DNA of 37,549 bases, from assembly GCA_026391915.1 (NCBI GenBank), contig JAPLCZ010000230.1:1-37549 (forward strand), given 5' to 3'. Shown here piece after piece: positions 5,458 through 28,455 of this stretch (its first letter is position 1; every line of letters starts with the position of its first letter). The stretch comes from Bacteroidota bacterium. GTDB taxonomy: Bacteria > Bacteroidota > Bacteroidia > CAILMK01. The notes beneath the pieces were generated by a model. The model had not been told where the DNA came from. It did no database searches and saw nothing but the letters and a program-made list of their open reading frames with translations. The position numbers and the translations under genes are program-made.

Positions 5458-6789
5458 TTACTCATGCCTTAAAGATTCAATAGGGTCTTGCATGGCAGCT
5501 TTGCGGGCTGGTGCAATCCCGAAAATAATCCCTGTGGCAACTGCCACACAAAAACTAATGATAATACTCATGGGCGTAATAATAGTGAATATATTGTTGA
5601 GTTTACTGATAGATTTTGCTGTTGCTACTCCAATGATAATCCCGGCAATACCACCCATTACGCTAATCAATATTGCCTCTGAAAGGAACTGATAGACTAC
5701 ATCTTTCTTGGTAGCTCCAAGTGCCAGACGAATCCCAATTTCTTTTAACCTCTCCATCACAGAAACCAGCATAATATTCATGATGCCAATTCCACCTACC
5801 AACAAAGAAATTCCTGCAATAAAACCAAGGGTATAACTAAAAGTTTTCTTAGTACTTTCTTGTTGCCGCAGTTGGTCTTGTGGTATGTTGATTTCAAAAT
5901 CTGTAACACCCGTGTGCCTCCTTTTCAGTATGGCACTTATTACTTCAGCCGCCGCAGGTAGGTTCTCTGCTTCATCCACTTGCACTATTAATTTATCTAT
6001 TTGGTTATAGCCTTTGTCTTCCTCTGGCGTTGGGGTTTCTTCGTCGTCATTGTTTTGGTTAAAGGTGTGTTTGGTAATTAAAGAACGATTTTTAACCCGC
6101 AACAAATGTGTAGTAATGGGGATGAAAATATCCATATTATTATCTCTAATTCCCAACTCTGTTGCAATTGATTTTGTTACGTTTCTATCTTCCAAAATCC
6201 CCACTACAGTAAACCACGTATTGCCGCATTTTATCTTTCTACCAATTGGGGCATCGCTGCTAAAAAATTTAGTTTGCACCCCTTTGCCAATCACACAAAC
6301 AGGGGTGGCGTTTTGTAATTGGTATTCATCAAAAATCTTCCCCTCAATCAGTTTAATATTATAGATGGAAAAGTATGGGATAGAAACCCCAACCAAATGG
6401 GTTCTTGCACCAATGCCTTTGCGCAAAGAGAACTTCTCAACATCCACCTCTGCACTCACATTAATAATATTTGGGATGACGGAATGGATAGCTTCTCCAT
6501 CCGCAATACAGAGCCCAAGAGAGCCTTCTTTCTTCTCCTTTTTTCCGGATTGTTTGTCTTCCTTTTTCTGGTTATTATTTTCCTTTGGCTTTTGCTTAAT
6601 GATGATATTATTTGAGCCTACTAGTTTTATTTGAGTAAGAATTTCCTGCTCTGTACCCCGCCCTATTGCAAGCATAGTTATTACACTTGCTACCCCGAAA
6701 ATAATCCCAAGGGCAGTGAGGATGGTGCGTAGTTTATTATGCAGCAATGCCTCTAACGCTATCCTTAAATTAAATAAAAACCTTTGCAT
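5458..6789 (-). CDS. ABC transporter permease, FtsX/MacB family (permease only, no ATPase domain)
   Basis: N-term FNLRIALEALLHNKLRTILTALGIIFGVASVITMLAIGRGTEQEI and C-term GGIGIMNIMLVSVMERLKEIGIRLALGATKKDVVYQFLSEAILIS are typical MacB_PCD/FtsX sequences; no Walker A motif. Confidence 0.93.
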   Translation of the reverse strand: MQRFLFNLRIALEALLHNKLRTILTALGIIFGVASVITMLAIGRGTEQEILTQIKLVGSNNIIIKQKPKENNNQKKEDKQSGKKEKKEGSLGLCIADGEAIHSVIPNIINVSAEVDVEKFSLRKGIGARTHLVGVSIPYFSIYNIKLIEGKIFDEYQLQNATPVCVIGKGVQTKFFSSDAPIGRKIKCGNTWFTVVGILEDRNVTKSIATELGIRDNNMDIFIPITTHLLRVKNRSLITKHTFNQNNDDEETPTPEEDKGYNQIDKLIVQVDEAENLPAAAEVISAILKRRHTGVTDFEINIPQDQLRQQESTKKTFSYTLGFIAGISLLVGGIGIMNIMLVSVMERLKEIGIRLALGATKKDVVYQFLSEAILISVMGGIAGIIIGVATAKSISKLNNIFTIITPMSIIISFCVAVATGIIFGIAPARKAAMQDPIESLRHE

Positions 6790-6801
6790 TACTCTGTTGG
6801 G

Positions 6802-8151
6802 TTAATCAATATAAAACATCATATCGTCAGAGCCTTTATCACTTTTCTTTTTGGGTTTATCCGGCACTTTTACCCGCTTTGGCTTTTTAGGTTTCTGGCT
6901 TGGTGATAGGAAAACCATCTTTAATTTATCAGCATCCGCTGGGGTATTTAGGTAAACTATTTCATTCTTTTTTAAACCCACCTGAATCCATGCATCATCA
7001 CTGCCTGCGCCACCTACTACTACTTCTTGTTTGATAATTGAGCCGCCATCATCTTTAAAAACATAATTCAAAGTATCGCTGCCATGCAATGCATCCAAAG
7101 GTATATGTACCGCATTTTTTACAGTTTGAATGATGATGGTACTACTTGTAGTCATAGCAGGCCGGAGGAGGGTATCTTGTTCTTCAAGTTGAATCATCAC
7201 TTCAAAAACCTTAGCGTCATTATTAGGTAATTGCTCACCAATATTGGCAACCGAAGTTACTTTGCCATGATATTTTTTATCAGGGAAGGCATCCACCCCA
7301 ATCACTACAGCTTGCCCCATTTTAACTTTGCTGATGTCCACTTCGTTTACATAAGTTTGGGTTACCATTACTGATAAATCAGGCAGGGTGGCTACCGTTG
7401 GGTCCCATGCACCAATGCTACTTCCTACTTTCAGTTTTTGTCCGTTCCAGTTCTTTTTATAAATCAGCATTCCGCTTTTTGGTGCATTGATAACGAACTC
7501 GTCAAGCAGCTTACTCATCTGGTCATATTTACTTTTTTGTTGAGAAAGAGTGGCTGCAATTTCCTGCATTTTTGCCTGAGTTTGTTGGGTTTTAAGAATA
7601 TAGTTTTTTTGTTCCTGTGCCCAAGTTCTCTTTGCTTTTTCTACTTCAATCTCCGCTTGCCTTATAGTTGCAGGAGGCTCATATTTACTTTGTTTTAAGA
7701 TGAGTTCCTTTTCCTCCACACCAAATTTAAGGTTCAGTAATTCATCTCTTAGTTTCCGCAATTCCAATGTGGTATCCAACCTTGTTTGCGTGTATTGAGA
7801 TTCTATTTTGCTGAGCTCAGTATTTAAATCTTTTAGTTTATTACTGATTTCACTGCGGTCAAGGGTGGCTACATAATCCCCTTCCTTCACCACAGTTCCT
7901 TCTGCAATAAGGTCTGTTATTTTTACATTCCAAACTCCGGCTTGCCGTAAGCCAGCAGGACCTTTTATGTCTTCAGAATTCAATGCTTGTAATTCACCCG
8001 TTGTGGTTACTGCAATTTGAAATTCACCTTGCTTTACGGGAACCTTTAGCAAAGTATCTTTTTTAACAGCTTTAGTTTTCAGAATATAAAATGCTGTAGC
8101 AAGAATAAGGATTCCTCCTGCGGCAAGTAATAGTTTTCGTGTTGTAGTCAT
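6802..8151 (-). CDS. HlyD/MacA-like efflux periplasmic adaptor subunit
   Basis: N-terminal TM, barrel-sandwich half (VPVKQGEFQIAVTTTGELQALN), coiled-coil hairpin, and membrane-proximal region; 12 nt upstream of the permease on the same strand. Confidence 0.88.
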   Translation of the reverse strand: MTTTRKLLLAAGGILILATAFYILKTKAVKKDTLLKVPVKQGEFQIAVTTTGELQALNSEDIKGPAGLRQAGVWNVKITDLIAEGTVVKEGDYVATLDRSEISNKLKDLNTELSKIESQYTQTRLDTTLELRKLRDELLNLKFGVEEKELILKQSKYEPPATIRQAEIEVEKAKRTWAQEQKNYILKTQQTQAKMQEIAATLSQQKSKYDQMSKLLDEFVINAPKSGMLIYKKNWNGQKLKVGSSIGAWDPTVATLPDLSVMVTQTYVNEVDISKVKMGQAVVIGVDAFPDKKYHGKVTSVANIGEQLPNNDAKVFEVMIQLEEQDTLLRPAMTTSSTIIIQTVKNAVHIPLDALHGSDTLNYVFKDDGGSIIKQEVVVGGAGSDDAWIQVGLKKNEIVYLNTPADADKLKMVFLSPSQKPKKPKRVKVPDKPKKKSDKGSDDMMFYID

Positions 8152-8273: not shown

Positions 8274-11200
8274 TTACCTTGCTATGGTTACCGTACCACG
8301 TTTAACGCCAGATTTATCACCTTTTGTTTTTCCAATTAAATCAAAATGGATTATCCAATAATAGGTTCCAGATGGGCACTCAACACCGGTATTATTTACC
8401 TGTCCGTTCCAGTCTTTTGATTTATCATCACCAGCAAAAACCTTTTCACCCCAGCGGTTATAGATTTCAATATTATAGGTTTTTTCACCTACAACTTTAG
8501 GGTCAAATACATCATTTTGTCCATCACCATTAGGAGTCATAATATTCCATGGTTGGAAATCAGTAATGCATCTTACGAATTTACTTATAGTATCCTCGCA
8601 TCCAGATTCGGTAATTGCCTTAAGTTTAATTTGGAAACGGAATTCCTTTTTGTCTTTACTATTATCAATTGGCACTTCGCTTTCAAACTGATGCTTAACC
8701 ACATTAGTGTCATTTACAGTAATGGTGTTGGTAGCTGTTTGGCTGATGTACGTCCACTGATAGCGAACGCAGTCTGGGCAACTATCTTGTGATTTATTCT
8801 TGAAGTAGAATTCACAATGGTCAGCACCCGTTATTGAGTCAACAATAAAGTCTGCATGTGCTGATTCAACCAATACTTGGCGTGTAATAATTGAATCGCC
8901 GCAATGAAGAGTTTTGCCTCTTAAGAGTACTGTATATACACCGGGTTTAGTATAAATATGTGCAACAGAATCTTTGGCAGTTATAGATGGGCTACCATCT
9001 CCCATATCCCAAGTAAAGCTTTCGTAAACAGTACGGCTCTTAGTAAATGCTTTAAGTTTTACTGGCTCACCAGGACAAACTGCTGTATCTCCTTTCATGC
9101 TAAATACATCCCTTCTATAAACTGTTATATTGATTACAGTATCACTAGCATGTGGCCATGTGGCAGAGCATAATTGCTTGGTACCTGTATGTAGATTAAA
9201 GATAGAATCGGACTGAGTGAGGTATAGTGGGAACACACTACTATCTAAGTTTTTCGCACTATCCTTAGGATCTAGATGGGTATAAGTTAGGTAAACAAAG
9301 CTATCAGTACTTACAGTATTTTGGCTGGTTCCATCACTCTTATTCCATAGATAGCTGGCGGTTTTATTTAACTCATGATTACGCACTTTAAGTGTGAATG
9401 GTAAACAACCTTTGTAATCTCCTACAACATTAAATTTAGGATGTGGTCCTGCTACTATCAGATATTTTTTACGGAGAAGAGAATCATTGCAACTACGCAA
9501 CGTGGTTATCTTAGCAAACATATCAAAAGTGTCATTACGGGTATAAGTAAATGCCAAGGTATCTGCCTGCAATGAGGTTCTTGTTATGTTTGGTCTACCA
9601 TCACCTTGGTTCCAAACCCAAGTAGTAATGCTATCAAAAATAATTACAGTATCTTTAATACAAGGTACATTTTTCTTCTTAATAACATCATAGCAGCTGC
9701 CTATATATTTGTCTTTATATGCAAATACATTCTTACGCTTTTTAGGGAATTGATAAGTACCAACTCCTAATGAGATATCAGTGCTATCAATAATAGTTAC
9801 CAGTACAGGTGCACAATAGTTAATGGTATCGCGTAGGTATTTAACGCTAAACTTAGGTTGTACTTTAATTATTTTAACAAAGTTTTTGCGTTGGGTATGT
9901 ACCACACAACCATTACTATCTGTGGTAATCATCCTTACTGTATAAACACCGGGTTGCTTATAGGTATGTGCTACATGCAAGCCTGTGGCAAGAGGGGAGC
10001 CATCTCCAAAATCCCATCTAACAGGCTCTTCACGTCTGTAATTTTTTCCTAATTTCCAGTTACGGTCAATGCTCTTTCTTACAGAGTCGGGCCAGAAAAT
10101 AGGAATAGAATCAAACCTATCCCAAGGGTTAAAAGGAATTACAGAACCCGAAACTGGGTTTGTACTATTCTCCCAAATACCAGATCTTGGCTGGTTTAAT
10201 CCATCATAAAGAATGGCAGTGTTCACAGGGTCTAAACTAAAGTACCTAACAGTACCATTAAAATGTACGGTGCTATTTAAGCAACTTACAGAGTCAGGAG
10301 AAGTGAAGAATGCAAGGTGACCATTAATAATTCTATAGTCCACTTGGTTTACTGTACATCCATCAATATTTCCCTCACTAATAGAGAGCTTATAAACACC
10401 AGGATAGGGTAGTTTAAAGTGTACAGTATCATGTCCGTTTGCTTTGCCTTTGGTGTAATGGTCATCCCATTTAGGGTCACTAAGGTCAAGGATAAGGATA
10501 CTATCTTTTATAGCCACTGGCTTCTTAGCTGTAAAAATTGTAATAGGATACTGGCAACTAAAATCTAAAGCTTGTGCTCTAGCATCCTTAGGGTCAATAG
10601 TGGCAGAGCCAGTTTTGTTTAAAGAAATAATCTCTGCCTTAGTTAGGTATAATGAGTTGCCAAATAAAGGTAAGTTTTGGCTGGTAGCCTTCCCTGTGGT
10701 AGGGTCTATATAATCATACTTAAAGTACACAGTATCACCACCACCAAATTTTGGTATGTAAACAATATCTTTAGTAGAAGTAATATCAGCTTGGTCAGAG
10801 TAATTATTACTTAGTGAAACTTCATTAGGCCAAAATGGTACGCTATAGTAATAATCATTAGCATCAAATCCACCCACGCTACCTGTATTTTCTTCCCTTG
10901 AAATATCATAATGGAAAGAAGTAATAAAGGTTTGATTGGTATCTACAGGGGCTACACTAATTGTGGCTGCGGGTGAATATTTTGCTGTATCATTACTACA
11001 TATCCTGCCTGATAAAGCCACTGGGCTTTGGGTTATATCATATTCTTCATTCCACCATTTTTTTGGATAGCTTTTGCTACCATCAGTGAGGGCTCCAATG
11101 GAAGTTTGAGTTGGGTCATAGTTTACTACAGGTTTTAACTGTACTCGTGTGGCAGAATCTATTACGCTTACCCGCGGCTCAAGTTTGTTAAAGCAAATAT

Positions 11201-13859
11201 AATTGTGGTACCAAGTGGTATCAACGCAATTACCATTTTGGATAACTACACCAATAGTCTTGCAACCAGAGTCCCCAATATTATACCACCAGTTACCAAG
11301 ATAAGGCAACCCAGTAAGGATTTTCTTGGATAAGAAACCCATATTCCAGATAGTATCGTAAACAGTTTTGCCAGCGACTTTGTGTGGATTAACCATACAT
11401 AGAGAGTCATTATTTGCTCTTGCAGAAGCTAAGCCTGCGGCAGAGTCAAAACAAACCCAATAATTTTGTGGTGCTTCGCACACACCGGGCAAGGTTTCAC
11501 TAAAATCAATTTTGTATTTATAGGTGGCACCCAGCGCACACGGCAGTGATTTTTCCGAAAGCATAAATCCTTTTCGTGGTGCCCTGGCGTTATGCCAGCC
11601 AATATAATTCTGTATATACCAATTCATATGGCAATAGTATTTAGTATTCCATCTGGCAGATGGTGGGCCCATCAAAATTTGGAATGTGGCAACATCATCA
11701 CACATAGGTTGGGTAGCCGCTTTGCCATATCTGGAGGTATCAGTAACAGTCATTTTTATGGTGTAGCAATAGGTGCTTCTCTTATCAGGGTCATAGGTTT
11801 TATTAGCAAAATAATGCAATGGGGCTGCCTCAGTAGAGTAGTTACAAGTATCATTATGTTTTGCATAAGTAGAAGTACACCCACCTGCTCTGCTATCCTG
11901 GAACTCCCATAAATATAAAAGAGAGTCACTGGAATAAGGCCAGTTTCTATCAAGGCATTTATCAGGTATTGGGTTAGGATATTGGTCATCCCAAGCATTA
12001 TAGCCTAATCTGAATTTTTTAGAATTATTAGTAAACTGAACCCAGTTAGGGTATTCACATTTGTATTTATCCGAGTCATGGATATTTTGCATAGGCTTCT
12101 TATCAGGAGACCACTCTGCAGTAGCAGGGTTGTAGAAAAGAGCTGTGTCATAATTATTAGGTGAATAAAGATTACCGCCAGAGGATTGTGACCATAAAAG
12201 AACACCTGCCTTAGGAAGTGGGTCACCAAATTTCCATTGGTATTTATTTTCAAGGGAATCCACAAACATCACAGTTTTATATGAAGATGCTTTGAATTTA
12301 AATTGCGCTGCATCCCAACCCTGCATAATTAGTTTTTTACCATTAGGACCATTACAAAGGGTATCATAGGTTTTTACTCCTTTAAAAGATGGCTTAGTGG
12401 TTATGTCGCAAAACTGAGGGGCATAATGTGCTGTTTTAGTTTTGCCATTAGGGTAAGTGTAAATTGAGTAATCAATAGTTTTAGCACACAACCTCCTATT
12501 AGTAATATCATTAAACATTGACCGGCTAAAAGTATCGTATTTAGTACCATGCTTAATGTTCCAATCTGCACTTAACGAAATAGAAGGCCTGAAGGTAGAA
12601 AGCGGCTTGCCTGGGTGTGGTGCAGGTGGCGTAATATTCAACCTCGCCTGCGGCCCCTTAACAAAGAGAAGGAAACAAGTATCAATTGCACAATCTTTAC
12701 CGGCAATGTGGTCTGCTTTAAATTTTATTTGATAGTTACGTGGCCCTTTTACAAAAGCATGCGCTTGAGTCCATGTATATGTTTTTACGTTTTCCAAACC
12801 ACTTGGAGGGTCATCAAAATTCCACTCTGTGTAATAGAACCCATCAATAGGGTCAATGGAGAAGGTTACATTTTGCTTAGCCAATGACCAGCAAAGAGAA
12901 TCAGGGAATTTTAAGTTGATGGTATATTTATAATTGATAATAGGGGAGGTAGCTTTGAATTTTTCATGGCAACCTTCTTTAGTCCAAACCTCAAATGTTG
13001 GGTAGAATTTACCGCCTTTGGTATAGAAGTGTTTGGGTGGATTCCAGTTTACAGAATCTAAAGGAGTGCTATCTGCAAAATCCCAATAAAATTTAGTAAC
13101 ATGATAATCTGTGGTATCAAAAGTTGTATTGTTTAGTATTGCCGCTGTAATCTTACAGTTTGGTTTAGAGTTAATAGTAAAAGTAGGTTTTAGATTAGGC
13201 AATATCTGAATTTTTCTACTAACAGTTTGTGTGTCCTGGCAACCTTTTGCATCTTTGATAGTAAGAGCAATAGAGTAAAACCCGGGAGACTGATAATGGT
13301 GACAACCTGGGTTATAACCTGTATCGTTTTGCCCATCTCCAAAAGCCCAGAAATAATCTGTAATAGGCCATTTGTGCTTACTTACTTTACTGCTTTGCTT
13401 ATAGCAATACTTATTAGTTTTAAAACATTGAACAGCCTGAATCTGACTTAAACTAATCTGTGCCTTTGGGTGATCCCAAACAATAATTTGGGGACCAAAA
13501 GTGGCGGTAGATTTACTCCCGTCACTATAGGTTATTGTACAAGAGGTACGGTAATCCTTAGTGGTATCAGGAGATCCGGTGAGGTAGGTATGTAATACCG
13601 TACTATCCGTGCTTGGGCTGTTATTGGTTTTCTTATCACCAAAATTCCAGTTCCATGCTACAGGAGTTTTTGATGATAGATTTACTGCCTTAAATCCTAC
13701 AGGATAAGGATAACAACCTTGCCTGCCAAAGCCGGGTTGCACATCCACCCTAATTTGGGCGTTGGCAATGGTGCCCATTATTACAATGGCAAAAATTGCA
13801 ATAAGGCTTTTCAAGTTCAAATTTGACTTATTCATGTTAATTACGTTTTGAGTGTTCAA
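8274..13859 (-). CDS. Giant (1861 aa) secreted PKD-domain protein with T9SS type B (gliding motility-associated) C-terminal domain
   Basis: Signal-peptide-like N-term; multiple PKD motifs (WNWNFGDKKTNNSPSTDSTVLHTYL, WDFGDGSPLATGLHVAHTYKQPGVYTVRM, WDMGDGSPSITAKDSVAHIYTKPGVYTVLL); C-term MTPNGDGQNDVFDPKVVGEKTYNIEIYNRWGEKVFAGDDKSKDWNG...GTYYWIIHF...GTVTIAR. Confidence 0.93.
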   Translation of the reverse strand: MNTQNVINMNKSNLNLKSLIAIFAIVIMGTIANAQIRVDVQPGFGRQGCYPYPVGFKAVNLSSKTPVAWNWNFGDKKTNNSPSTDSTVLHTYLTGSPDTTKDYRTSCTITYSDGSKSTATFGPQIIVWDHPKAQISLSQIQAVQCFKTNKYCYKQSSKVSKHKWPITDYFWAFGDGQNDTGYNPGCHHYQSPGFYSIALTIKDAKGCQDTQTVSRKIQILPNLKPTFTINSKPNCKITAAILNNTTFDTTDYHVTKFYWDFADSTPLDSVNWNPPKHFYTKGGKFYPTFEVWTKEGCHEKFKATSPIINYKYTINLKFPDSLCWSLAKQNVTFSIDPIDGFYYTEWNFDDPPSGLENVKTYTWTQAHAFVKGPRNYQIKFKADHIAGKDCAIDTCFLLFVKGPQARLNITPPAPHPGKPLSTFRPSISLSADWNIKHGTKYDTFSRSMFNDITNRRLCAKTIDYSIYTYPNGKTKTAHYAPQFCDITTKPSFKGVKTYDTLCNGPNGKKLIMQGWDAAQFKFKASSYKTVMFVDSLENKYQWKFGDPLPKAGVLLWSQSSGGNLYSPNNYDTALFYNPATAEWSPDKKPMQNIHDSDKYKCEYPNWVQFTNNSKKFRLGYNAWDDQYPNPIPDKCLDRNWPYSSDSLLYLWEFQDSRAGGCTSTYAKHNDTCNYSTEAAPLHYFANKTYDPDKRSTYCYTIKMTVTDTSRYGKAATQPMCDDVATFQILMGPPSARWNTKYYCHMNWYIQNYIGWHNARAPRKGFMLSEKSLPCALGATYKYKIDFSETLPGVCEAPQNYWVCFDSAAGLASARANNDSLCMVNPHKVAGKTVYDTIWNMGFLSKKILTGLPYLGNWWYNIGDSGCKTIGVVIQNGNCVDTTWYHNYICFNKLEPRVSVIDSATRVQLKPVVNYDPTQTSIGALTDGSKSYPKKWWNEEYDITQSPVALSGRICSNDTAKYSPAATISVAPVDTNQTFITSFHYDISREENTGSVGGFDANDYYYSVPFWPNEVSLSNNYSDQADITSTKDIVYIPKFGGGDTVYFKYDYIDPTTGKATSQNLPLFGNSLYLTKAEIISLNKTGSATIDPKDARAQALDFSCQYPITIFTAKKPVAIKDSILILDLSDPKWDDHYTKGKANGHDTVHFKLPYPGVYKLSISEGNIDGCTVNQVDYRIINGHLAFFTSPDSVSCLNSTVHFNGTVRYFSLDPVNTAILYDGLNQPRSGIWENSTNPVSGSVIPFNPWDRFDSIPIFWPDSVRKSIDRNWKLGKNYRREEPVRWDFGDGSPLATGLHVAHTYKQPGVYTVRMITTDSNGCVVHTQRKNFVKIIKVQPKFSVKYLRDTINYCAPVLVTIIDSTDISLGVGTYQFPKKRKNVFAYKDKYIGSCYDVIKKKNVPCIKDTVIIFDSITTWVWNQGDGRPNITRTSLQADTLAFTYTRNDTFDMFAKITTLRSCNDSLLRKKYLIVAGPHPKFNVVGDYKGCLPFTLKVRNHELNKTASYLWNKSDGTSQNTVSTDSFVYLTYTHLDPKDSAKNLDSSVFPLYLTQSDSIFNLHTGTKQLCSATWPHASDTVINITVYRRDVFSMKGDTAVCPGEPVKLKAFTKSRTVYESFTWDMGDGSPSITAKDSVAHIYTKPGVYTVLLRGKTLHCGDSIITRQVLVESAHADFIVDSITGADHCEFYFKNKSQDSCPDCVRYQWTYISQTATNTITVNDTNVVKHQFESEVPIDNSKDKKEFRFQIKLKAITESGCEDTISKFVRCITDFQPWNIMTPNGDGQNDVFDPKVVGEKTYNIEIYNRWGEKVFAGDDKSKDWNGQVNNTGVECPSGTYYWIIHFDLIGKTKGDKSGVKRGTVTIAR

Positions 13860-13895: not shown

Positions 13896-15194
13896 TTACC
13901 GCGTGATGGTAACTGTACCTGTTTTGGTTTTCAGTGGCTCATTCCCAAACTGATATTTGATGAGATAAATATAAGTTCCAGTAGCACACGGCTGCCCAGT
14001 TTTTAGGTTGTTGCCTTCCCAACTCATGGTTCTGTTTTGTGTGGTATAAACCATTTCTCCTCGGCTATTCATGATGGATGCTTCAAAGAATCTGGCTTCA
14101 GAAAAGTCAAGGTCAAAAGCATCATTAATACCATCACCGTTGGGGGTAAATACATTATTAGGCATATTAAATTTATTTCTGCCACTCACATTTATTTTCT
14201 GGATGAAGGTATCCATGCAGCCATTTTGCCCAAAGGCTTTTAACCTGATGGTGTAATCACCTTCTTTACTGAAACTATGCTCAGGATTTACTCTCATATC
14301 CATAGCAGAGCCATCATTAAAATACCACTCAAACCTATTGGCATTTTGAGTATTATTGCTGATTCTGCAAGTAAGACCTTCGCAGCCACTTACCATAAAG
14401 TCTGCTTTCTGCAACTCTCTTACTTGCACATTGCGTGAACAAGTGGAAAATTTATTTTTAACACTCACTTGATAAACCCCAGCCCTCTTATATTTATGCT
14501 GCATGAGGTCATTATCCTGAGATGTACTTCCATCTCCCCAATCTACAATTGTGGTTGTGCCACCTGCATTAAATTGGTAAGTAGCATTGGCGCAAATTGC
14601 GGTATCATCCAAGCTTGTTGGTAGAACTGCGGGTTTATTCTCATTTTTTCCTTTGTTGTCATTTGCAGTGGCTTTATCCTTATCTCCATTACTTGGGTCA
14701 ATAGTTTTATCACCATTATTATTTGGGGTATTCAAATTATTTCCATCAACATCAGTAATGGATTTACTTGAGCCCAACACCCTACCCATTCTTATTTTAG
14801 TATCCTCTTTAGTGAGTTTGTTTTCGTTGATGGGGTCATTATTCCCTTCTACAACTGCTGCATTATTTTCAGAATTATTGATTTGATTTCCACTCTCAAC
14901 CACCCCTATTTTTTCAGTATTTGAGGTTTTCTTATCCTCGCCATTAAGGTTATTATAAATCAAGACTGCGGCAGTGATAACCACTGCCCCAATAATAGCA
15001 ATACCGCCCAATTTGGCAGCTGTAAACGCTTTTACCACAGAGCCTGCCTGCGTGCCACTTGCGCTACTGCCAGCATTAGGCATTTGCCCAATTTGCTGCT
15101 GCACAGCTTGCCAACCCTGGTTCATTTCCGCGGGGTTGAAATCTGCCTCATAGTTTTCAAAGGCATCTTTAAAAATTTTATCCATATTACTCAT
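13896..15194 (-). CDS. Membrane-anchored PKD protein with short N-terminal cytoplasmic (anti-sigma-like) region and T9SS type B C-terminal domain
   Basis: ~60-aa N-term (MDKIFKDAFENYEADFNPAEMNQGWQAVQQQI), one TM (LGGIAIIGAVVITAAVLIY), Asn/Asp/Lys-rich linker, PKD motifs (IVDWGDGSTSQDNDLMQHKYKRAGVYQVSV; FEWYFNDGSAMDMRVNPEHSFSKEGDYTIRL) and CTD (FTPNGDGINDAFDLDFSEARFFEASIMNSRGEMVY...GTYIYLIKY...GTVTITR). Start overlaps the sigma-factor stop by 8 nt. Confidence 0.85.
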   Translation of the reverse strand: MSNMDKIFKDAFENYEADFNPAEMNQGWQAVQQQIGQMPNAGSSASGTQAGSVVKAFTAAKLGGIAIIGAVVITAAVLIYNNLNGEDKKTSNTEKIGVVESGNQINNSENNAAVVEGNNDPINENKLTKEDTKIRMGRVLGSSKSITDVDGNNLNTPNNNGDKTIDPSNGDKDKATANDNKGKNENKPAVLPTSLDDTAICANATYQFNAGGTTTIVDWGDGSTSQDNDLMQHKYKRAGVYQVSVKNKFSTCSRNVQVRELQKADFMVSGCEGLTCRISNNTQNANRFEWYFNDGSAMDMRVNPEHSFSKEGDYTIRLKAFGQNGCMDTFIQKINVSGRNKFNMPNNVFTPNGDGINDAFDLDFSEARFFEASIMNSRGEMVYTTQNRTMSWEGNNLKTGQPCATGTYIYLIKYQFGNEPLKTKTGTVTITR

Positions 15195-15789
15195 GGCTTA
15201 TTTTATTCAATAAATTAATATTTTCTCTTTCTTCAATCATCTTTTGCATAGCTTGCTTTGCCCTTGCATATTGCGATTTTGAAGTGCTCTCACTAATCCC
15301 AAACTTCTCCCCAATTTCTTTGTGGGTATATCCCTCAATAGCAAAAAGGTTAAACACCAACTTATACCCAGTAGGTAGGCTGTGCATCATCCCTAAAAGC
15401 TCCTCATAATTTAAATGGCTGATGGTGTTTTCTTCGCCGTATTTCTCTTCGCCAAATTCAGTGTTTAAATCAGTGGTCATTATATCTGCTTTCTTCCTGC
15501 GAATGTTATCAAGGGCGCTGTTCACCATTATTCTCCTAAGCCATGCCTCAATATTTCCGTTATGTACAAAATCTACAATATGCTTAAATGCCTTCACATA
15601 TCCCTCCTGCAAAACATCTTTTGCCTCATCCCTGCTTTCACTATATCTTAAAGTTACACCTAACATTTTTCCGTAGTATTTTTTGTAAAACATTTCTTGA
15701 TATTTTGGCATCCCCTTGCGGCATCCATCCACCATCTCTTTCTCTGCATCTGAAGGCTCAAACCCCATATCATTTCCGTGATTTTGCAT
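15187..15789 (-). CDS. RNA polymerase sigma-70 family (ECF-like) sigma factor
   Basis: Region 2 (YSESRDEAKDVLQEGYVKAFKHIVDFVHNGNIEAWLRRIMVNSALDNIRRKK) and region 4 (LPTGYKLVFNLFAIEGYTHKEIGEKFGISESTSKSQYARAKQAM). ORF is open to 15843; ATG at 15789 (MQNHGNDMGFEPSDAEKE) is the more likely start. Confidence 0.93.
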   Translation of the reverse strand: MQNHGNDMGFEPSDAEKEMVDGCRKGMPKYQEMFYKKYYGKMLGVTLRYSESRDEAKDVLQEGYVKAFKHIVDFVHNGNIEAWLRRIMVNSALDNIRRKKADIMTTDLNTEFGEEKYGEENTISHLNYEELLGMMHSLPTGYKLVFNLFAIEGYTHKEIGEKFGISESTSKSQYARAKQAMQKMIEERENINLLNKISHE

Positions 15790-15892
15790 AAGGACGTAAA
15801 ATTTGCCCCAAAAGACGTATGGGGGTATGAAAATAATTTTCATTTGCCCCTTTCTCCTCTCAAGGTATTTCTCTAAAACCTTTTAAATTTAC

Positions 15893-15900
15893 TAATTTTG
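15893..15900 (+). promoter_or_regulatory. Candidate Bacteroidota -7 box TAATTTTG upstream of accC
   Basis: Matches TAnnTTTG, 46 nt before the ATG; no clear -33 TTG. Confidence 0.35.
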
Positions 15901-15945
15901 GCGGAAAATTACGATTTACCCCCCGTAAAAATATTTTTAAAAAAG

Positions 15946-17436
15946 ATGCAAAAAATTTTAGTTGCCAACCGTGGCGAGATAGCCCTCCGCATTATGAGGT
16001 CAATAAAAGAAATGGGCATTGCCACCGTAGCCGTGTATTCCGAGGCAGATAGATTAGCACCCCATGTCCGCTTTGCCGATGAAGCCATTTGCCTTGGGCC
16101 TGCCCCCTCCAATCAATCCTATTTATTAGAAGATAAAATTATAGCCGAAGCCCTGCGCCTTGGCGTAGATGGCATACACCCCGGCTATGGATTCCTCTCA
16201 GAGAACGCAGAATTTGCGGGTAAAGTAGAGGCTGCCGGCATCACTTTTATTGGCCCATCATCCCTTGCTATAGAAATGATGGGGAATAAACTCGCCGCCA
16301 AAGCTGCCGCCTTGAAGTTTGATGTGCCTATGCTACCCGGTACTAAAGATGCCATTGCCGATATTGCCGAAGCCAAAAAAATTGCTACCGAAATCGGGTT
16401 CCCTGTTTTAATCAAAGCCGCTGCCGGAGGTGGTGGCAAAGGGATGCGGGTGGTAAATGCCGCCGCCGAATTGGAAGAACAAATGCAGCGCGCCATTGGT
16501 GAGGCAACCTCTGCCTTTGGCGATGGAAGCGTTTTTCTGGAAAAATATGTTGCCTCCCCAAGGCATATTGAGATTCAAGTACTCTGTGATAAACACCAAA
16601 ACTACCTATACCTTTTTGAGAGGGAGTGCTCTGTGCAGCGCCGCCACCAAAAGGTAGTGGAGGAGGCTCCTTCCTGCGTACTTACCCCCGAAATCCGCAA
16701 GATGATGGGCGAAAACGCTGTGAAAATTGCCAAAGCCTGCGACTATGTAGGTGCCGGCACAGTAGAGTTTTTATTGGATGAAAACCACCATTTCTTTTTC
16801 TTGGAGATGAATACCCGCCTGCAAGTAGAGCATCCCGTTACGGAGATGATAACAGGGCTTGACCTTGTAAAAGAACAAATAAAAATAGCGCGTGGAGAGG
16901 TGCTCTCATTTACGCAGGAGGATTTAAAAATCAATGGGCACGCTATTGAATTGCGCATTTATGCCGAAGACCCCACCAATAATTTTTTGCCGGATATTGG
17001 CACCCTAAAAACCTACCGCACCCCTGATGGCCCCGGCATACGGGTGGATGGCGGCTACGAAGAAGGCATGACCATACCTGTATATTATGACCCCATGATT
17101 GCCAAACTTGCCGTGCATGCCCCCACCCGCCAAGAGGCATTGCAAAAGATGATACGTGCTATTGATGATTACAAAATAGAAGGCGTAGCCAACACCCTTA
17201 TTTTCGGAAAATTTGTGATGCAGCACCCCGATTTTGCAAGCGGAAATTTTGATACCCATTTTGTGCCCAAGCACTTCTCCCCAGAGAAACTACAATCCCA
17301 AAACGAAGACGAAATACTTATAGCTGCCATTGCCGCCGCACATATTTACGAAACAGCAAAAAAGGAAGTTGCCACTGCTGCGACCAATGGTGCAGTGAAA
17401 TCTAATTGGGGGGAGAGAAGGGGGATGAGGGGGTAG
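15946..17436 (+). CDS. accC: Biotin carboxylase (acetyl-/propionyl-CoA carboxylase biotin carboxylase subunit)
   Basis: MQKILVANRGEIALRIMRSIKEMGIATVAVYSEAD, GIHPGYGFLSENAEFA, KAAAGGGGKGMR, FLEMNTRLQVEHPVTEMITGLDLV. The longer ORF from 15898 uses TTG; ATG 15946 matches the family start. No BCCP domain. Confidence 0.95.
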   Translation: MQKILVANRGEIALRIMRSIKEMGIATVAVYSEADRLAPHVRFADEAICLGPAPSNQSYLLEDKIIAEALRLGVDGIHPGYGFLSENAEFAGKVEAAGITFIGPSSLAIEMMGNKLAAKAAALKFDVPMLPGTKDAIADIAEAKKIATEIGFPVLIKAAAGGGGKGMRVVNAAAELEEQMQRAIGEATSAFGDGSVFLEKYVASPRHIEIQVLCDKHQNYLYLFERECSVQRRHQKVVEEAPSCVLTPEIRKMMGENAVKIAKACDYVGAGTVEFLLDENHHFFFLEMNTRLQVEHPVTEMITGLDLVKEQIKIARGEVLSFTQEDLKINGHAIELRIYAEDPTNNFLPDIGTLKTYRTPDGPGIRVDGGYEEGMTIPVYYDPMIAKLAVHAPTRQEALQKMIRAIDDYKIEGVANTLIFGKFVMQHPDFASGNFDTHFVPKHFSPEKLQSQNEDEILIAAIAAAHIYETAKKEVATAATNGAVKSNWGERRGMRG

Positions 17437-23317: not shown

Positions 23318-26300
23318 CTATCTAAGCAGATGTATTAATCCCTTTTTAAAATAATGTTTACGGTCAAAAGCATGAGCTTCCACAACATAAACATATACAT
23401 CTGCAGGGCAAGGGTTGCCATTATCTATAAAAGTTCCATTCCAACCTTTATGCTTATCATGAGTTTCAAAAACTCTTGTACCCCAGCGGTCATAAATAGT
23501 AAAGGTATATTGTAAATCCTTTATTTTAGAAGAATTGAAAATAGAAAGAGCCGAGATATTGAACTCATCATTTAATCCTGGGGTAACTCCTGTGAGTTTA
23601 GATCCTACTAACCATGTGGGTGTAAACGCCGTTGGCACAAAAACTCTAGATGGTAAATAGCAACAAGTAGAATTAGAAATACTAGTATCAGTAAAGCCAG
23701 GGAAATTATCAATAGCAACCACACGGAAACAAGTAGCGGAGTCCATATCACTATGCGAAAGAGTATCAGTAGCCGTAGTGTCAGAAGCAATATTTCTTGA
23801 TACAACAGGAGTCCATGTGCCACTTACATCTTTATACTGTAAAATATAATTGCTAAATGGTTGTGGGAAATCTTTGTACTCATTCCATGTCAAATCAAAC
23901 ATATCATTATTAATAGCACAAGTAAGCATAATAGAAGTACCTAAGTTTGATTCATTAACAATACGTGGATTGCCAGTACCTGCACGGGTTATGTTACCAC
24001 AAGAGTCTTCTACAGCTACGCGATACCTATAATAGCCCGTCAATACATCAACCTTTTTATCAATATAAGAAGTTACTGTTGGGCCAACAATGTCAAAATC
24101 AGTTACCCAGCCATTGGTCTTATCCCATTTATCAATATGGTAAGCCTTAATATTAGGTTGAGAGCCCGACACCCATTTGGTAAGTGTATACTCATTATTT
24201 ACAACTGTAGTGTAGGATAATTCTATAGGTTTTAATTGATAAGTATATGCGGGTCTTGATACTACTTTATTACTAAATGAATTATAAGCAGTATCTGTTT
24301 GATGAATTGCTTTAACATAGTAGCGATAATTTTTATCACATAAGCCAGAGGCATCTAAATAGGTAGAATCTGTTGCTTTTAAAGTCGCAAGGAGGCTATA
24401 TTTTAAATCATTAGTATCATTTCTGTAAAGTTCATAACCCTTGGGGCCAAGACCACCAATGGAATCCCATCCATGATATGTACTCCAGGCAAGTTGAACT
24501 GCAGGAGTGGTTCCCGCAACACTTGGGGTAGCTGTTAAATAAATTGTTTGGTGGGTGTATGCTGTATCAGAAAATAGCCCGCATTGGTCAGCAATGCTTA
24601 ATGAATATCCATAAGATTGAGCATTCACATCAATACCGCTTGATGGATCACTATAGTTATCTGTATTAATCGTAGTGATGGTGGAGATATTGGTAATTGG
24701 AGAACCCATTCTATAAATATCATATTGTTTAAAAACCGGGTCAGTTGATTTATTCCAATAAATGTGAACATCTGCAGGAGTCCCCGGCATATGATTCCTA
24801 TCTACGGTTACGCATTTAATACTTGGTGCAATAGGTCTGGAAGGAGCAGTAATTGTTATAAGGCTATCCTTAGCAATGCTATCCTTACAACCAAAATTTG
24901 TTACAATTGCTAAAGAAACAGTATAAGTTCCTGCAACAGTATAATTATGTTGAACAACACTACCTGTATTATCAGTTCCACCATCACCAAAATCCCATGA
25001 ATAAGAACCAATCACGCCATCCGGTGTTGTACTGCTGGAGGTAAAAGTATAAGGGTCATTAAAACATTTTAAATTCTTTGGGGTGTAATCAAAGTCTGCC
25101 TTTGGGAGACCATGCACGGTTATATAATTCATATGAGAAAAAGTATCAGCGCAATTAGCACTTTCAACTTTTGTTCTTACACTAAATGTTTTAGCAGCAC
25201 CCGTGGTGGTGAAGGTATGGGTAACGTCATCACCAGCATTTGTTACCGTGTCATAATTACCATCACCATCAAAATCCCAAGATACCTTAGTGTGGTATTT
25301 ACCCTTATCTTTAAAAGTAACAGTCAATGGGGTGCAACCTGAGGTTGGAGTAGTGGCATCAAAGGATGCTAATGGAGGTCTATATAGAGTTATAGAATCA
25401 GTGAAAAATGCATAGCAAGGATTTGCGGAATTATCACTAACAATAAGGATTGGATAATACTTAACACTTGGTTGACTATAATCAGCGTATTTATATTTAT
25501 GAGTTCTAGCAACAAAGTTGAAGGAGTCTAATGGAGAGCCATCCTTATAATCAAAAGTTATTTTCTTTATGTTAGAACTTAGGTTAGTAAAGGTCATAGT
25601 AGAGTCTCCGCAAGCAGAATGCGGCGTAAAAGAAAACTTAGCAACCGGACCCACTAATTGAATATAGGAAGTTTGTACATCTGTATCTTTACAACCATTG
25701 GCATCTTCTACTATTAATGCAATTGTATATCCTGAAGAGTTATTCACTTTATAATCATGGTAAACAATTGTATTTGCTGTTGTATCACCTTTGCCATCCC
25801 CATAATCCCATATATATTTTACCGCACCTTGTGAACTATCAAAGAAAGTAACCAGTTGAGGTGCACAAATCTTGAATCTATCATTACTATAAAAATGAGC
25901 CACGGGTCTTGTTATAGTAATGGTATCATTTATAGTAGAATTACAGTTTTTATTCCCTTGTTTCCCAACCGATAATTGGATTGCATATACACCTGGTTTT
26001 GAAAAACTGACTGTACAAGTATCATTTGTAGAGGCACTGAATGTTGCGTCAGATTTATTTGCAGAAACGCAAGCCCATGCAAAGGCCGTAGGGTTACCAG
26101 AACTAGAGCTTATAAGATTAATTGGGGTATTTATACACCCTGTTTTATTCGTAGTAAAAGCAGCTTGGGTACCAAGATAAATAAGTCCAGGTTTGTTTAC
26201 GGTTGTGGTGCAGGTTTGGGCGCCAAATGTATTAATAATCGTTAATGAAATATCATAACTACCAGATGTTGTAATTTGAATTTTAGATGGATTAGCTACA

Positions 26301-28309
26301 GTAGAGTCATTAATTTTAGCAATCCTGCCTCCAGTTGAATTAAATGCCGGACTTATTGACCAAGCGTATTTGAGGGTAGATGTAGAAGGTATTGTTTGCC
26401 CGATATAGGAGTTAAGTGTAATGTCCCCATTTTTTATTGGAGTACAATAATTTGTAGCAGTCATGGTCACTGAATCCACAATAACACCATTCACTTTAAC
26501 TGCATTTTTTTTAGAAATTCTAGAACTACAACCCACTAAAGTATTTGTAACGGTTAATGTTAAATCATATATACCTGGAAATGCAAAAGAAATATCTGGC
26601 TTTTTGATATACCTGTTAATCACTGCGGAAGTAATTGTTTGATGCGCTAAGGTCCAATTATACTGATAAGGATGTACAGTAGAATCTACAGGTTGGGTGG
26701 AGTCAATAAAATGAACTGTTTCGCCAATACACACATCAGTATCATGAATACGATAAAAAATTGAAGGCTTGGCGATGAAAATGCTTCCGTTACTAGTTGC
26801 GGAGTCTGAGCATCCATTAGAATTATTAATAACAAGTTTCACGGAGAATATTCTCTTCCCGAATGATAACATTGCTGGCGTTATGATAAACGACTCTGAA
26901 TCTACAGTATTGGTTTTTGTTGCTATTTGTTTTTGAGCAAATTTCCCAGCAATAATTGTATCATAGCTTAGATACCATTTATAGGTATTACCAACTGAAT
27001 GTTTTGTTGCTCTAACGTGGACTGTATCAGGAGGTGAACACTGAGAACCATCAAGAATTTTATTAATACCAGCTTTAGGAGGTAAGATGGTAAAAATTGC
27101 TGGAATAACAAGTTGAACATTGCAATTAAATAATCCTTTGTAATAGCCAGACATAGTCATTTTAACACTTCCAATATTTGAAAATTTAAAAGTAACGGTA
27201 TCGCTATTTGTCTTTATGGGGGAATTTGTTGAAGTAATATCAGTGCTGAAAGTATTTAAATGTAATCCACCACTAAGGCTTGATTTTGTAAGCATTACAG
27301 TATCATTTGCGCCCATACAGTATTTATTCTTCTTGGCTACAAAATAATGTTTTGTGACTAACTTAGGGTAGCTTACAAAAGTTGTACATCCATTTGTCGC
27401 ATACACTCTTAGACTAACTGAATATTTTTTGGACGTATCTATAGAACTATAATTATGGGTTCTTGGGAATGTAGCTGTACTAGCAACACTATCTACAGGA
27501 GAACCATCCCCCCAATCAAATACATATGCACTAACATAAGATGCACCTGAAATCATTTTTGGACTAAGCTCTAATTTTATATTTGTATGAGTGATAGAAT
27601 CTTCTGTTAGGGTTGCGCAAAGACCTGCGGACAGAACATCTGGCAGGGATATATAATTAGTTTTAGTTAGGTAGTGACTACAACCGCTAGAGTCAAATAC
27701 CTGTAACAAAACAGTGTAATTTCCAGTTGTCGGCAAGGTAAAAGTATCAGAACTCAATTTGCCAAACGTGGTATCAACCCTTGTATAGCCATTGGGACCA
27801 GAAATAATCCAAAAGCATTTTTCAACTCCACCTGTTGTACTATCAATCAATTTCATTTTATAAGGACCACCACAAAACTTAAGGTTTACTGCTCCGAACT
27901 TTACACTTCCCAAGGTTTTAATTATAAATTTGTTGGTAAATATCTTAGTGCATAAGGTACTACCATTCTTAGTATAGACAATTTTCAATCTTGGGTTATA
28001 AGTGCCTGCCGCACTATAAACGTGAGATGTCTTACTACCAGCAATGCTAAAAGTCCCTTTTTTGTTCACTGCATCATTAGGGTCATCAAAATCCCAATAG
28101 TAAGCTGCAGTATCGTTTCTTGCTGCAACAGTAGAAGCATAGGGGATGTCAAAGGTCACATTTTTAGGTGTGCAACCCGTAGCTTGGGTAATGGTAAAGT
28201 CCATGGAGTCGCAAGCATTTTGGGCAGTTGCATTGGTGCTGATAAATAGTCCAATAAATAGTGCTGTCGCTGACAGCATTGTACTGATTTTTCTAACAAA
28301 TCTATACAT
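23318..28309 (-). CDS. Giant (1663 aa) PKD-repeat protein with FN3-like modules and T9SS type B C-terminal domain
   Basis: Signal peptide; PKD motifs (YIWDYGDGKGDTTANTIVYHDY, WDFDGDGNYDTVTNAGDDVTHTF, YSWDFGDGGTDNTGSVVQHNYTVAGTYTVSL); FN3-like GYELYRNDTNDLKYSLLATLKATDSTYLDASGLCDKNYRYYVKAI; CTD PTAFTPTWL...LNDEFNISALSIF...FTIYDRWGTRVFETHDKHKGWNGTF...YVYVVEAHAFDRKHYFKKGLIHLLR. Confidence 0.94.
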   Translation of the reverse strand: MYRFVRKISTMLSATALFIGLFISTNATAQNACDSMDFTITQATGCTPKNVTFDIPYASTVAARNDTAAYYWDFDDPNDAVNKKGTFSIAGSKTSHVYSAAGTYNPRLKIVYTKNGSTLCTKIFTNKFIIKTLGSVKFGAVNLKFCGGPYKMKLIDSTTGGVEKCFWIISGPNGYTRVDTTFGKLSSDTFTLPTTGNYTVLLQVFDSSGCSHYLTKTNYISLPDVLSAGLCATLTEDSITHTNIKLELSPKMISGASYVSAYVFDWGDGSPVDSVASTATFPRTHNYSSIDTSKKYSVSLRVYATNGCTTFVSYPKLVTKHYFVAKKNKYCMGANDTVMLTKSSLSGGLHLNTFSTDITSTNSPIKTNSDTVTFKFSNIGSVKMTMSGYYKGLFNCNVQLVIPAIFTILPPKAGINKILDGSQCSPPDTVHVRATKHSVGNTYKWYLSYDTIIAGKFAQKQIATKTNTVDSESFIITPAMLSFGKRIFSVKLVINNSNGCSDSATSNGSIFIAKPSIFYRIHDTDVCIGETVHFIDSTQPVDSTVHPYQYNWTLAHQTITSAVINRYIKKPDISFAFPGIYDLTLTVTNTLVGCSSRISKKNAVKVNGVIVDSVTMTATNYCTPIKNGDITLNSYIGQTIPSTSTLKYAWSISPAFNSTGGRIAKINDSTVANPSKIQITTSGSYDISLTIINTFGAQTCTTTVNKPGLIYLGTQAAFTTNKTGCINTPINLISSSSGNPTAFAWACVSANKSDATFSASTNDTCTVSFSKPGVYAIQLSVGKQGNKNCNSTINDTITITRPVAHFYSNDRFKICAPQLVTFFDSSQGAVKYIWDYGDGKGDTTANTIVYHDYKVNNSSGYTIALIVEDANGCKDTDVQTSYIQLVGPVAKFSFTPHSACGDSTMTFTNLSSNIKKITFDYKDGSPLDSFNFVARTHKYKYADYSQPSVKYYPILIVSDNSANPCYAFFTDSITLYRPPLASFDATTPTSGCTPLTVTFKDKGKYHTKVSWDFDGDGNYDTVTNAGDDVTHTFTTTGAAKTFSVRTKVESANCADTFSHMNYITVHGLPKADFDYTPKNLKCFNDPYTFTSSSTTPDGVIGSYSWDFGDGGTDNTGSVVQHNYTVAGTYTVSLAIVTNFGCKDSIAKDSLITITAPSRPIAPSIKCVTVDRNHMPGTPADVHIYWNKSTDPVFKQYDIYRMGSPITNISTITTINTDNYSDPSSGIDVNAQSYGYSLSIADQCGLFSDTAYTHQTIYLTATPSVAGTTPAVQLAWSTYHGWDSIGGLGPKGYELYRNDTNDLKYSLLATLKATDSTYLDASGLCDKNYRYYVKAIHQTDTAYNSFSNKVVSRPAYTYQLKPIELSYTTVVNNEYTLTKWVSGSQPNIKAYHIDKWDKTNGWVTDFDIVGPTVTSYIDKKVDVLTGYYRYRVAVEDSCGNITRAGTGNPRIVNESNLGTSIMLTCAINNDMFDLTWNEYKDFPQPFSNYILQYKDVSGTWTPVVSRNIASDTTATDTLSHSDMDSATCFRVVAIDNFPGFTDTSISNSTCCYLPSRVFVPTAFTPTWLVGSKLTGVTPGLNDEFNISALSIFNSSKIKDLQYTFTIYDRWGTRVFETHDKHKGWNGTFIDNGNPCPADVYVYVVEAHAFDRKHYFKKGLIHLLR

Positions 28310-28387
28310 TTTTTGTGTGTGTAGTTTTTAAAAGTGTTTATGCCTGATTTATGTAATTTAGAGCTTCATTACCCTAAATAGAATTTA

Positions 28388-28418
28388 CAAAGATAGGATT
28401 TGGAATTAAATTACAAAA
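28388..28418 (-). promoter_or_regulatory. Bacteroidota-type promoter for the 23318-28309 gene
   Basis: Minus strand TTTTG-N18-TATCTTTG, matching the TTTG / TAnnTTTG arrangement, about 80 nt upstream of the ATG. Confidence 0.65.
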
Positions 28419-28455
28419 CTCCAAATGCCAAATTATGTTTTTTTTTTTCAACAGC

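Follow-up and report, generated by a model that had tools for sequence, protein, structure and literature searches.

Why should a membrane protein encoded directly behind an ECF sigma factor end in a domain resembling the type B sorting signal of type IX secretion (T9SS) cargo? The question is raised by a 37,549-nt stretch of DNA from a Bacteroidota bacterium (contig JAPLCZ010000230.1), here called the window. We consider it likely that the two genes encode an ECF sigma factor and its cognate, inner-membrane-anchored anti-sigma factor of a build like that of the dual membrane-spanning anti-sigmas (Dma), in which an altered T9SS type B CTD replaces the beta-barrel as the outer-membrane module.

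The locus and its relatives

The features of the locus are collected in Table 1. The sigma ORF is open to position 15843 (15187-15843, minus strand), and the true start is likely to be the ATG at 15789 or 15768, because the alignment of relatives begins there. In Pfam the ORF matches Sigma70_r2 (E=1.2e-12) and Sigma70_r4_2 (E=4.7e-14). The earlier note on this DNA had read the sigma stop as overlapping the start of the next gene by 8 nt, and the overlap is exactly that long. It had also placed the transmembrane helix of the second protein centrally; in fact the segment lies near the N-terminus (residues 62-80 of 432). The PKD-like domains that it recognised are borne out by a PKD_4 match (E=4e-15) and by Foldseek. 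The type B CTD stands as a CHU_C match (E=3e-16), but the domain is divergent, since its TIGR04131 score of 31.6 bits is under the NCBI cut-off of 35. AlphaFold2 predicts for the anti-sigma alone helices at residues 4-13, 21-36 and 67-83 and beta domains at 198-337 and 367-430, in a model from a 10-sequence alignment with a mean pLDDT of 61 and low confidence over 35-195.

Table 1. Features of the sigma/anti-sigma locus (positions in the window)
Feature	Position	Strand	Basis or remark
ECF sigma factor gene	15187..15789	(-)	Pfam/NCBIfam; orthologues L004, L005, L072-L076, L078, L081
8-nt overlap of sigma stop and anti-sigma start	15187..15194		ATGAGTAA on coding strand; same -8 in L004, L005
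Dma-like anti-sigma factor with type-B-CTD-like C-terminus, 432 aa	13896..15194	(-)	
N-terminal anti-sigma domain, residues 1-37, two helices, invariant Trp28	15084..15194	(-)	hhalign to barrel-type anti-sigma N-termini; AlphaFold2 read-through model of relatives
Single transmembrane helix, residues 62-83	14946..15011	(-)	Hydropathy (hydrophobic segment 62-80); AlphaFold2 helix 67-83
Disordered Asn/Asp/Lys-rich, putatively periplasmic linker, residues 84-195	14610..14945	(-)	pLDDT <50 over 35-195
Two PKD/Ig-like domains, residues 198-337	14184..14603	(-)	PKD_4 in two stretches; Foldseek PKD1 domains, TMt 0.82-0.84
Type-B-CTD-like domain (CHU_C), residues 346-432	13899..14159	(-)	CHU_C E=3e-16; TIGR04131 31.6 bits
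Site of cargo motif NRWG, here NSRG (Arg378 in place of cargo Trp)	14058..14069	(-)	CTD alignment
Third operon gene: giant secreted PKD protein, 1861 aa, ordinary type B CTD (NRWGE)	8274..13859	(-)	AxAQ signal peptide
accC (biotin carboxylase), divergent neighbour	15898..17436	(+)	Syntenic anchor; no part in mechanism

Conserved synteny was one of the checks that the earlier note had proposed, and the pair passes it in the order as well as in many other Bacteroidia. A sigma gene followed by a transmembrane CHU_C protein is present in 10 of 12 genomes of the order (window, G001, G002, G004 and G006-G011). In all ten, a third gene completes the operon; it lies on the same strand and encodes a giant PKD protein, about 1,600-2,400 aa long where complete and carrying a CTD with NRWG in 8 of 8 complete cases; accC lies divergently upstream in seven of the ten. 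A CHU_C protein is found downstream at 34 of 81 sigma loci from the order and class-wide samples, and at 28 of 75 sigma loci from named genomes (Flavobacteriales 21/22, Chitinophagales 1/7, Bacteroidales 0/11, Cytophagales 0/7, Sphingobacteriales 0/10); both sets sample the best sigma matches, and the figures are no estimate of prevalence. The cultured hosts Fluviicola chungangensis MAH-3 and Crocinitomix catalasitica ATCC 23190 also carry the pair. Altogether 62 pairs share this build. Their genes lie -29 to +48 nt apart and overlap in 40 cases, which makes the tight arrangement more than chance. A search of the genome contigs with the window sigma as single query gave no match.

The source genome encodes SprA and has 37 CHU_C matches, 24 of them over the cut-off. 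The presence of SprA was considered as a marker to separate genomes lacking the T9SS and was rejected, SprA being present in 385 of 395 genomes. Two more very large type B CTD proteins (ORFs of 1663 and 1707 aa) lie at 23318-33579 of the window. The giant PKD gene is followed by MacA/MacB-like membrane-fusion and permease genes (5458-8151), in a position that is not conserved in the relatives.

Upstream of the sigma gene, the promoter element GGCAAC-N17-CGT, of ECF type, occurs at 8 of 10 order loci and GACAAC-N17-CGT at one more, with a spacer of always 17 nt and at 5-26 nt from the assigned start. The chance of the pattern is about 0.001 per region, a figure that is indicative only, as the pattern was spotted by eye in these same regions. 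GGCAAC-N17-CGT was not found upstream of the window's own sigma gene (15789-16000); with its long branch and the missing element, this sigma factor may have drifted in promoter specificity. Looser CAAC-N16/17-CGT forms are present at some other sigma loci. As to a wider regulon, genome-wide matches to the pattern numbered 44 versus 60 for the reversed control, that is, no excess. The 208-aa ORF that begins 23 nt after one intergenic match in G002 (contig C118, locus L290) encodes a small protein that has a signal peptide and a C-terminus like that of outer-membrane proteins; this is possibly a regulon member or possibly a chance hit. A CGT -10 box of ECF-like character has been described for T9SS genes of F. 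psychrophilum (PMC9723704) and is cited as a parallel only.

A probable anti-sigma factor of Dma-like build

The closest known build is that of the Dma proteins. These consist of an anti-sigma domain, a transmembrane segment, a disordered tether and a barrel, and are encoded next to an ECF21 sigma factor (Das) in Bacteroides thetaiotaomicron (PMC13088901). The window protein has in common with them the adjacent ECF sigma gene, the N-terminal anti-sigma domain, the single transmembrane segment and the long disordered tether. The spacing from this segment to the CTD is 120-328 residues in the 62 members, which, if mostly extended, would be enough to span the periplasm. The C-terminal module of Dma is at the outer membrane, and by analogy that of the window protein would be there too. 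However, the published members end in a beta-barrel (PMC13088901), whereas the window protein has PKD domains and a CHU_C domain in its place. We therefore call the window anti-sigma Dma-like, working as a Dma would, and do not file it as a member; its tie to the named Dma1-3 rests on architecture. The earlier note had named P. gingivalis SigP/PorX/PorY as a precedent for sigma control of T9SS genes, though one of different architecture; it had missed Dma, whose architecture is a close precedent (PMC13088901). No report of a CTD-bearing anti-sigma was found in the literature searched, many subscription papers being outside that search. The locus is a real and conserved variant of Dma-like regulation, undescribed in that literature; how novel it is depends on how far that literature reaches and is limited by the Dma precedent.

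Homology of the N-terminal domain to barrel-type proteins supports this kinship. Downstream of paralogous sigma genes in the same genomes are proteins that share the N-terminal motif and the transmembrane segment and end in an outer-membrane barrel (PF13568 in several). Their N-termini match that of the CTD-bearing anti-sigmas (hhalign 98.4%, E=5.4e-15), with the Trp invariant. The N-terminal anti-sigma profile gave no match among solved structures.

Other paralogous sigmas show a further arrangement. At L204, L212, L217, L222, L223 and L228 (Cytophagales, Sphingobacteriales), the anti-sigma is short and the next gene encodes a secreted protein of its own, whose C-terminus resembles that of outer-membrane proteins; the PF13568 barrel was found in one of three tested (L217, with no Pfam match in L204 and L228). 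It looks as if the Dma barrel had become a gene of its own. Moreover, at least two tandem copies of the motif E..P....W..I...L precede the transmembrane segment in the anti-sigmas of L077, L080, L082, L100-L102, L104, L107, L111, L131, L143, L152 and L159. This suggests multi-headed anti-sigmas that could hold several sigma molecules.

In the sigma tree of the 81 loci, the CTD label changes 7 times in the simplest account, with at least 3 changes forced by well-supported branches, versus about 25 changes when the label is shuffled; the tree does not say whether the CTD was gained or lost, and its placement of the window row, a long branch, is uncertain. On this evidence the outer end was probably swapped on more than one occasion, and CTD and barrel would therefore be exchangeable ends.

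Does the N-terminal domain bind the sigma factor? No natural sigma/anti-sigma fusion was found among the loci examined. In eight relatives, however, the anti-sigma continues the reading frame of the sigma factor, interrupted only by TAA stops. These were translated as Q, and the joined products were truncated behind the N-terminal region. The eight sequences were aligned and the L072 row was folded with AlphaFold2. Beyond a low-confidence linker, the anti-sigma helices of the model reach a pLDDT of 94-96 (pTM 0.78), against about 60 for the same helices in the sigma-free window model; the read-through model, which has no PAE or coordinates behind it, describes the relatives and not the window pair, whose overlap is out of frame. 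The helices are thus predicted with confidence beside the sigma factor in the relatives, though confident helices could also be obtained without a true interface. In Foldseek comparisons, the sigma part scores TMt 0.64 with SigW-RsiW, 0.56 with CnrH-CnrY and 0.56-0.57 with RpoE-NepR, and 0.30-0.42 with RNAP-bound ECFs. The predicted sigma fold is closer to several anti-sigma-bound ECFs than to RNAP-bound ones, which is suggestive only, because some anti-sigma-bound structures also score low (AlgU-MucA 0.49, RpoE-RseA 0.46-0.50). The structure prediction that the earlier note had proposed for N-terminus and sigma factor thus agrees, in relatives, with its view of the membrane protein as anti-sigma-like. 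Given also the homology to Dma-like barrel anti-sigmas and the recurrence of the pair, an anti-sigma role is well supported; direct inhibition of the sigma factor is a matter of predicted placement.

The membrane anchor and the altered CTD

CHU_C and PKD domains are typical of cargo, and the protein could in principle be plain T9SS cargo whose N-terminal region is unusually long, whose transmembrane segment is a cleaved signal peptide and whose sigma neighbour is incidental. We find this extremely unlikely. In each of the 62 anti-sigmas, the hydrophobic segment begins between residues 36 and 86 (median 53; residue 62 in the window protein, which lacks an AxAQ site). A loose signal-peptidase-like match follows it in only 5 of the 62, whereas 10 of 10 giant cargo neighbours carry a signal peptide and, with it, an AxAQ-type site. 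The conserved anti-sigma N-terminus and the conserved sigma neighbour argue against it as well. As far as sequence goes, a cleaved signal peptide, which the earlier note had named as fatal to its idea, does not appear to be present. Simple cargo with a signal anchor was dropped on the position of the segment, the missing signal-peptidase site and the conserved N-terminus.

The CTD itself differs strongly from that of cargo at one position. Alignment of 34 anti-sigma CTDs with 53 cargo CTDs, to which 28 anti-sigma CTDs were added later, found the Trp of the RWG motif in none of the 34 and again in none of the 28 (0/62 in total). Cargo CTDs have the Arg in 49 of 53 and the Trp in 47 of 53, a set partly picked by high CHU_C score and so favouring canonical motifs; the much less affected cargo of the source genome has the Trp in 21 of 21, and the neighbouring giant cargo has the Trp of NRWG in 8 of 8. 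The difference between the 34 and the 53 gives a Fisher p=2e-18, relatedness ignored. The first 34 retain PNGDG, ND, WDG, GxYxY and the closing GxIxLxR; the next 28 retain most of these, with the last Gly in only 8. The residues at the Trp position are mostly small or polar, and the polar replacements suggest that the cargo Trp is surface-exposed and makes a contact.

An SprB CTD reporter was no longer secreted when any one of five conserved type B motifs was mutated (PMC12618676). The motif letters are not spelled out in that text, and we infer that RWG is one of the five. Because the Trp is missing and any one such mutation blocked the reporter (PMC12618676), the window tail is unlikely to be treated like the CTD of ordinary exported cargo. 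One version of the idea in the earlier note would be a secretion-powered switch: SprA would take up the CTD as it does that of cargo, with the N-terminus still anchored in the inner membrane, and pulling or surface cleavage would lead to proteolysis of the anti-sigma. Most CTD motifs are conserved and the linker is long enough for the periplasm, as that would need, but the systematic loss of the Trp, set beside the reporter result (PMC12618676), makes it very unlikely. CTD cleavage also becomes a less likely trigger, because in P. gingivalis the barrel PorP holds a type B CTD protein from which the CTD is not removed (PMC9143113). Since the RWG Trp is lost, a non-exported docking tail is more likely than one engaged or cleaved as a secretion signal.

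PorP/SprF-like barrels hold type B cargo (PMC9143113); none was recognised beside the pair in the window or the order genomes. This, the missing Trp in 62 of 62 and a window CTD under the NCBI type B cut-off would fit a mere periplasmic sensor that makes no T9SS contact and has borrowed the CHU_C-type fold as an Ig-like binding module. We think such a sensor unlikely: the remaining columns of the CTD motifs are conserved in the first 34 and mostly in the next 28, and other proteins of this build have an outer-membrane barrel in place of the module, which argues for a role facing the outer membrane.

A putative T9SS readout and its meaning

The preferred reading, a Dma-like anti-sigma with a docking CTD, can be put as follows. 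The N-terminal two-helix domain, from its predicted placement and its homology to Dma-type anti-sigmas, would hold the sigma factor at the membrane. From the transmembrane helix, a long flexible tether would cross the periplasm, as sequence, AlphaFold2 and the presumed topology suggest. The CTD-like domain would lie on the periplasmic face of the outer membrane, where it would most likely dock on a PorP/SprF-like T9SS shuttle or on the translocon component SprA. It would not be exported, given the lost RWG Trp and the anchoring of the N-terminal end in the inner membrane. A change at the CTD end, for instance when real cargo occupies the site, the docking partner is lost or the envelope is damaged, would release the sigma factor, probably through regulated proteolysis of the anti-sigma. 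The sigma factor would then transcribe its own operon, including the giant T9SS cargo, in keeping with the promoter conserved in the order. A readout of T9SS state by the anti-sigma tail is plausible. As a more tentative possibility, the Trp-less CTD could be a non-exportable mimic of the secretion signal. Occupying a type B shuttle or SprA on the side of the periplasm, it would compete with genuine type B cargo, for example the giant protein of the same operon, so that the sigma factor would be switched by T9SS load.

Known systems offer partial parallels. FlgM, itself exported, is an anti-sigma of sigma28 coupled to secretion, and RsgI is an anti-sigma of SigI coupled to an outward-facing sensor domain; the proteins and export machinery are unrelated to the window pair. 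In the PorA-PorXY-SigP system of Porphyromonas gingivalis, a CTD-bearing protein likewise influences an ECF sigma tied to T9SS genes, but PorA is a separate surface protein acting via a two-component system (PMC7712824), while here the CTD sits on the anti-sigma itself. Type B cargo with PorP/SprF shuttles shares the C-terminal CHU_C/TIGR04131-like domain and most motifs (PMC9143113, PMC12618676); the window protein differs in its inner-membrane anchor, its lack of a cleavable signal peptide and the lost Trp of RWG.

Because several anti-sigmas of this build pass the NCBI type B cut-off, automatic annotation can label them as secreted type B cargo, and T9SS substrate lists probably include regulators. 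If true, the T9SS-load mimic would correspond, in type IX secretion, to the FlgM checkpoint, here on a Dma chassis. More generally, the outer-membrane end of Dma-like regulators would be exchangeable, and a widespread anti-sigma family with an altered secretion signal is a concrete candidate sensor of T9SS or outer-membrane state, with the Trp position of RWG as the test residue. Through this pair, Bacteroidota may let cell-surface events control the genes of surface proteins.
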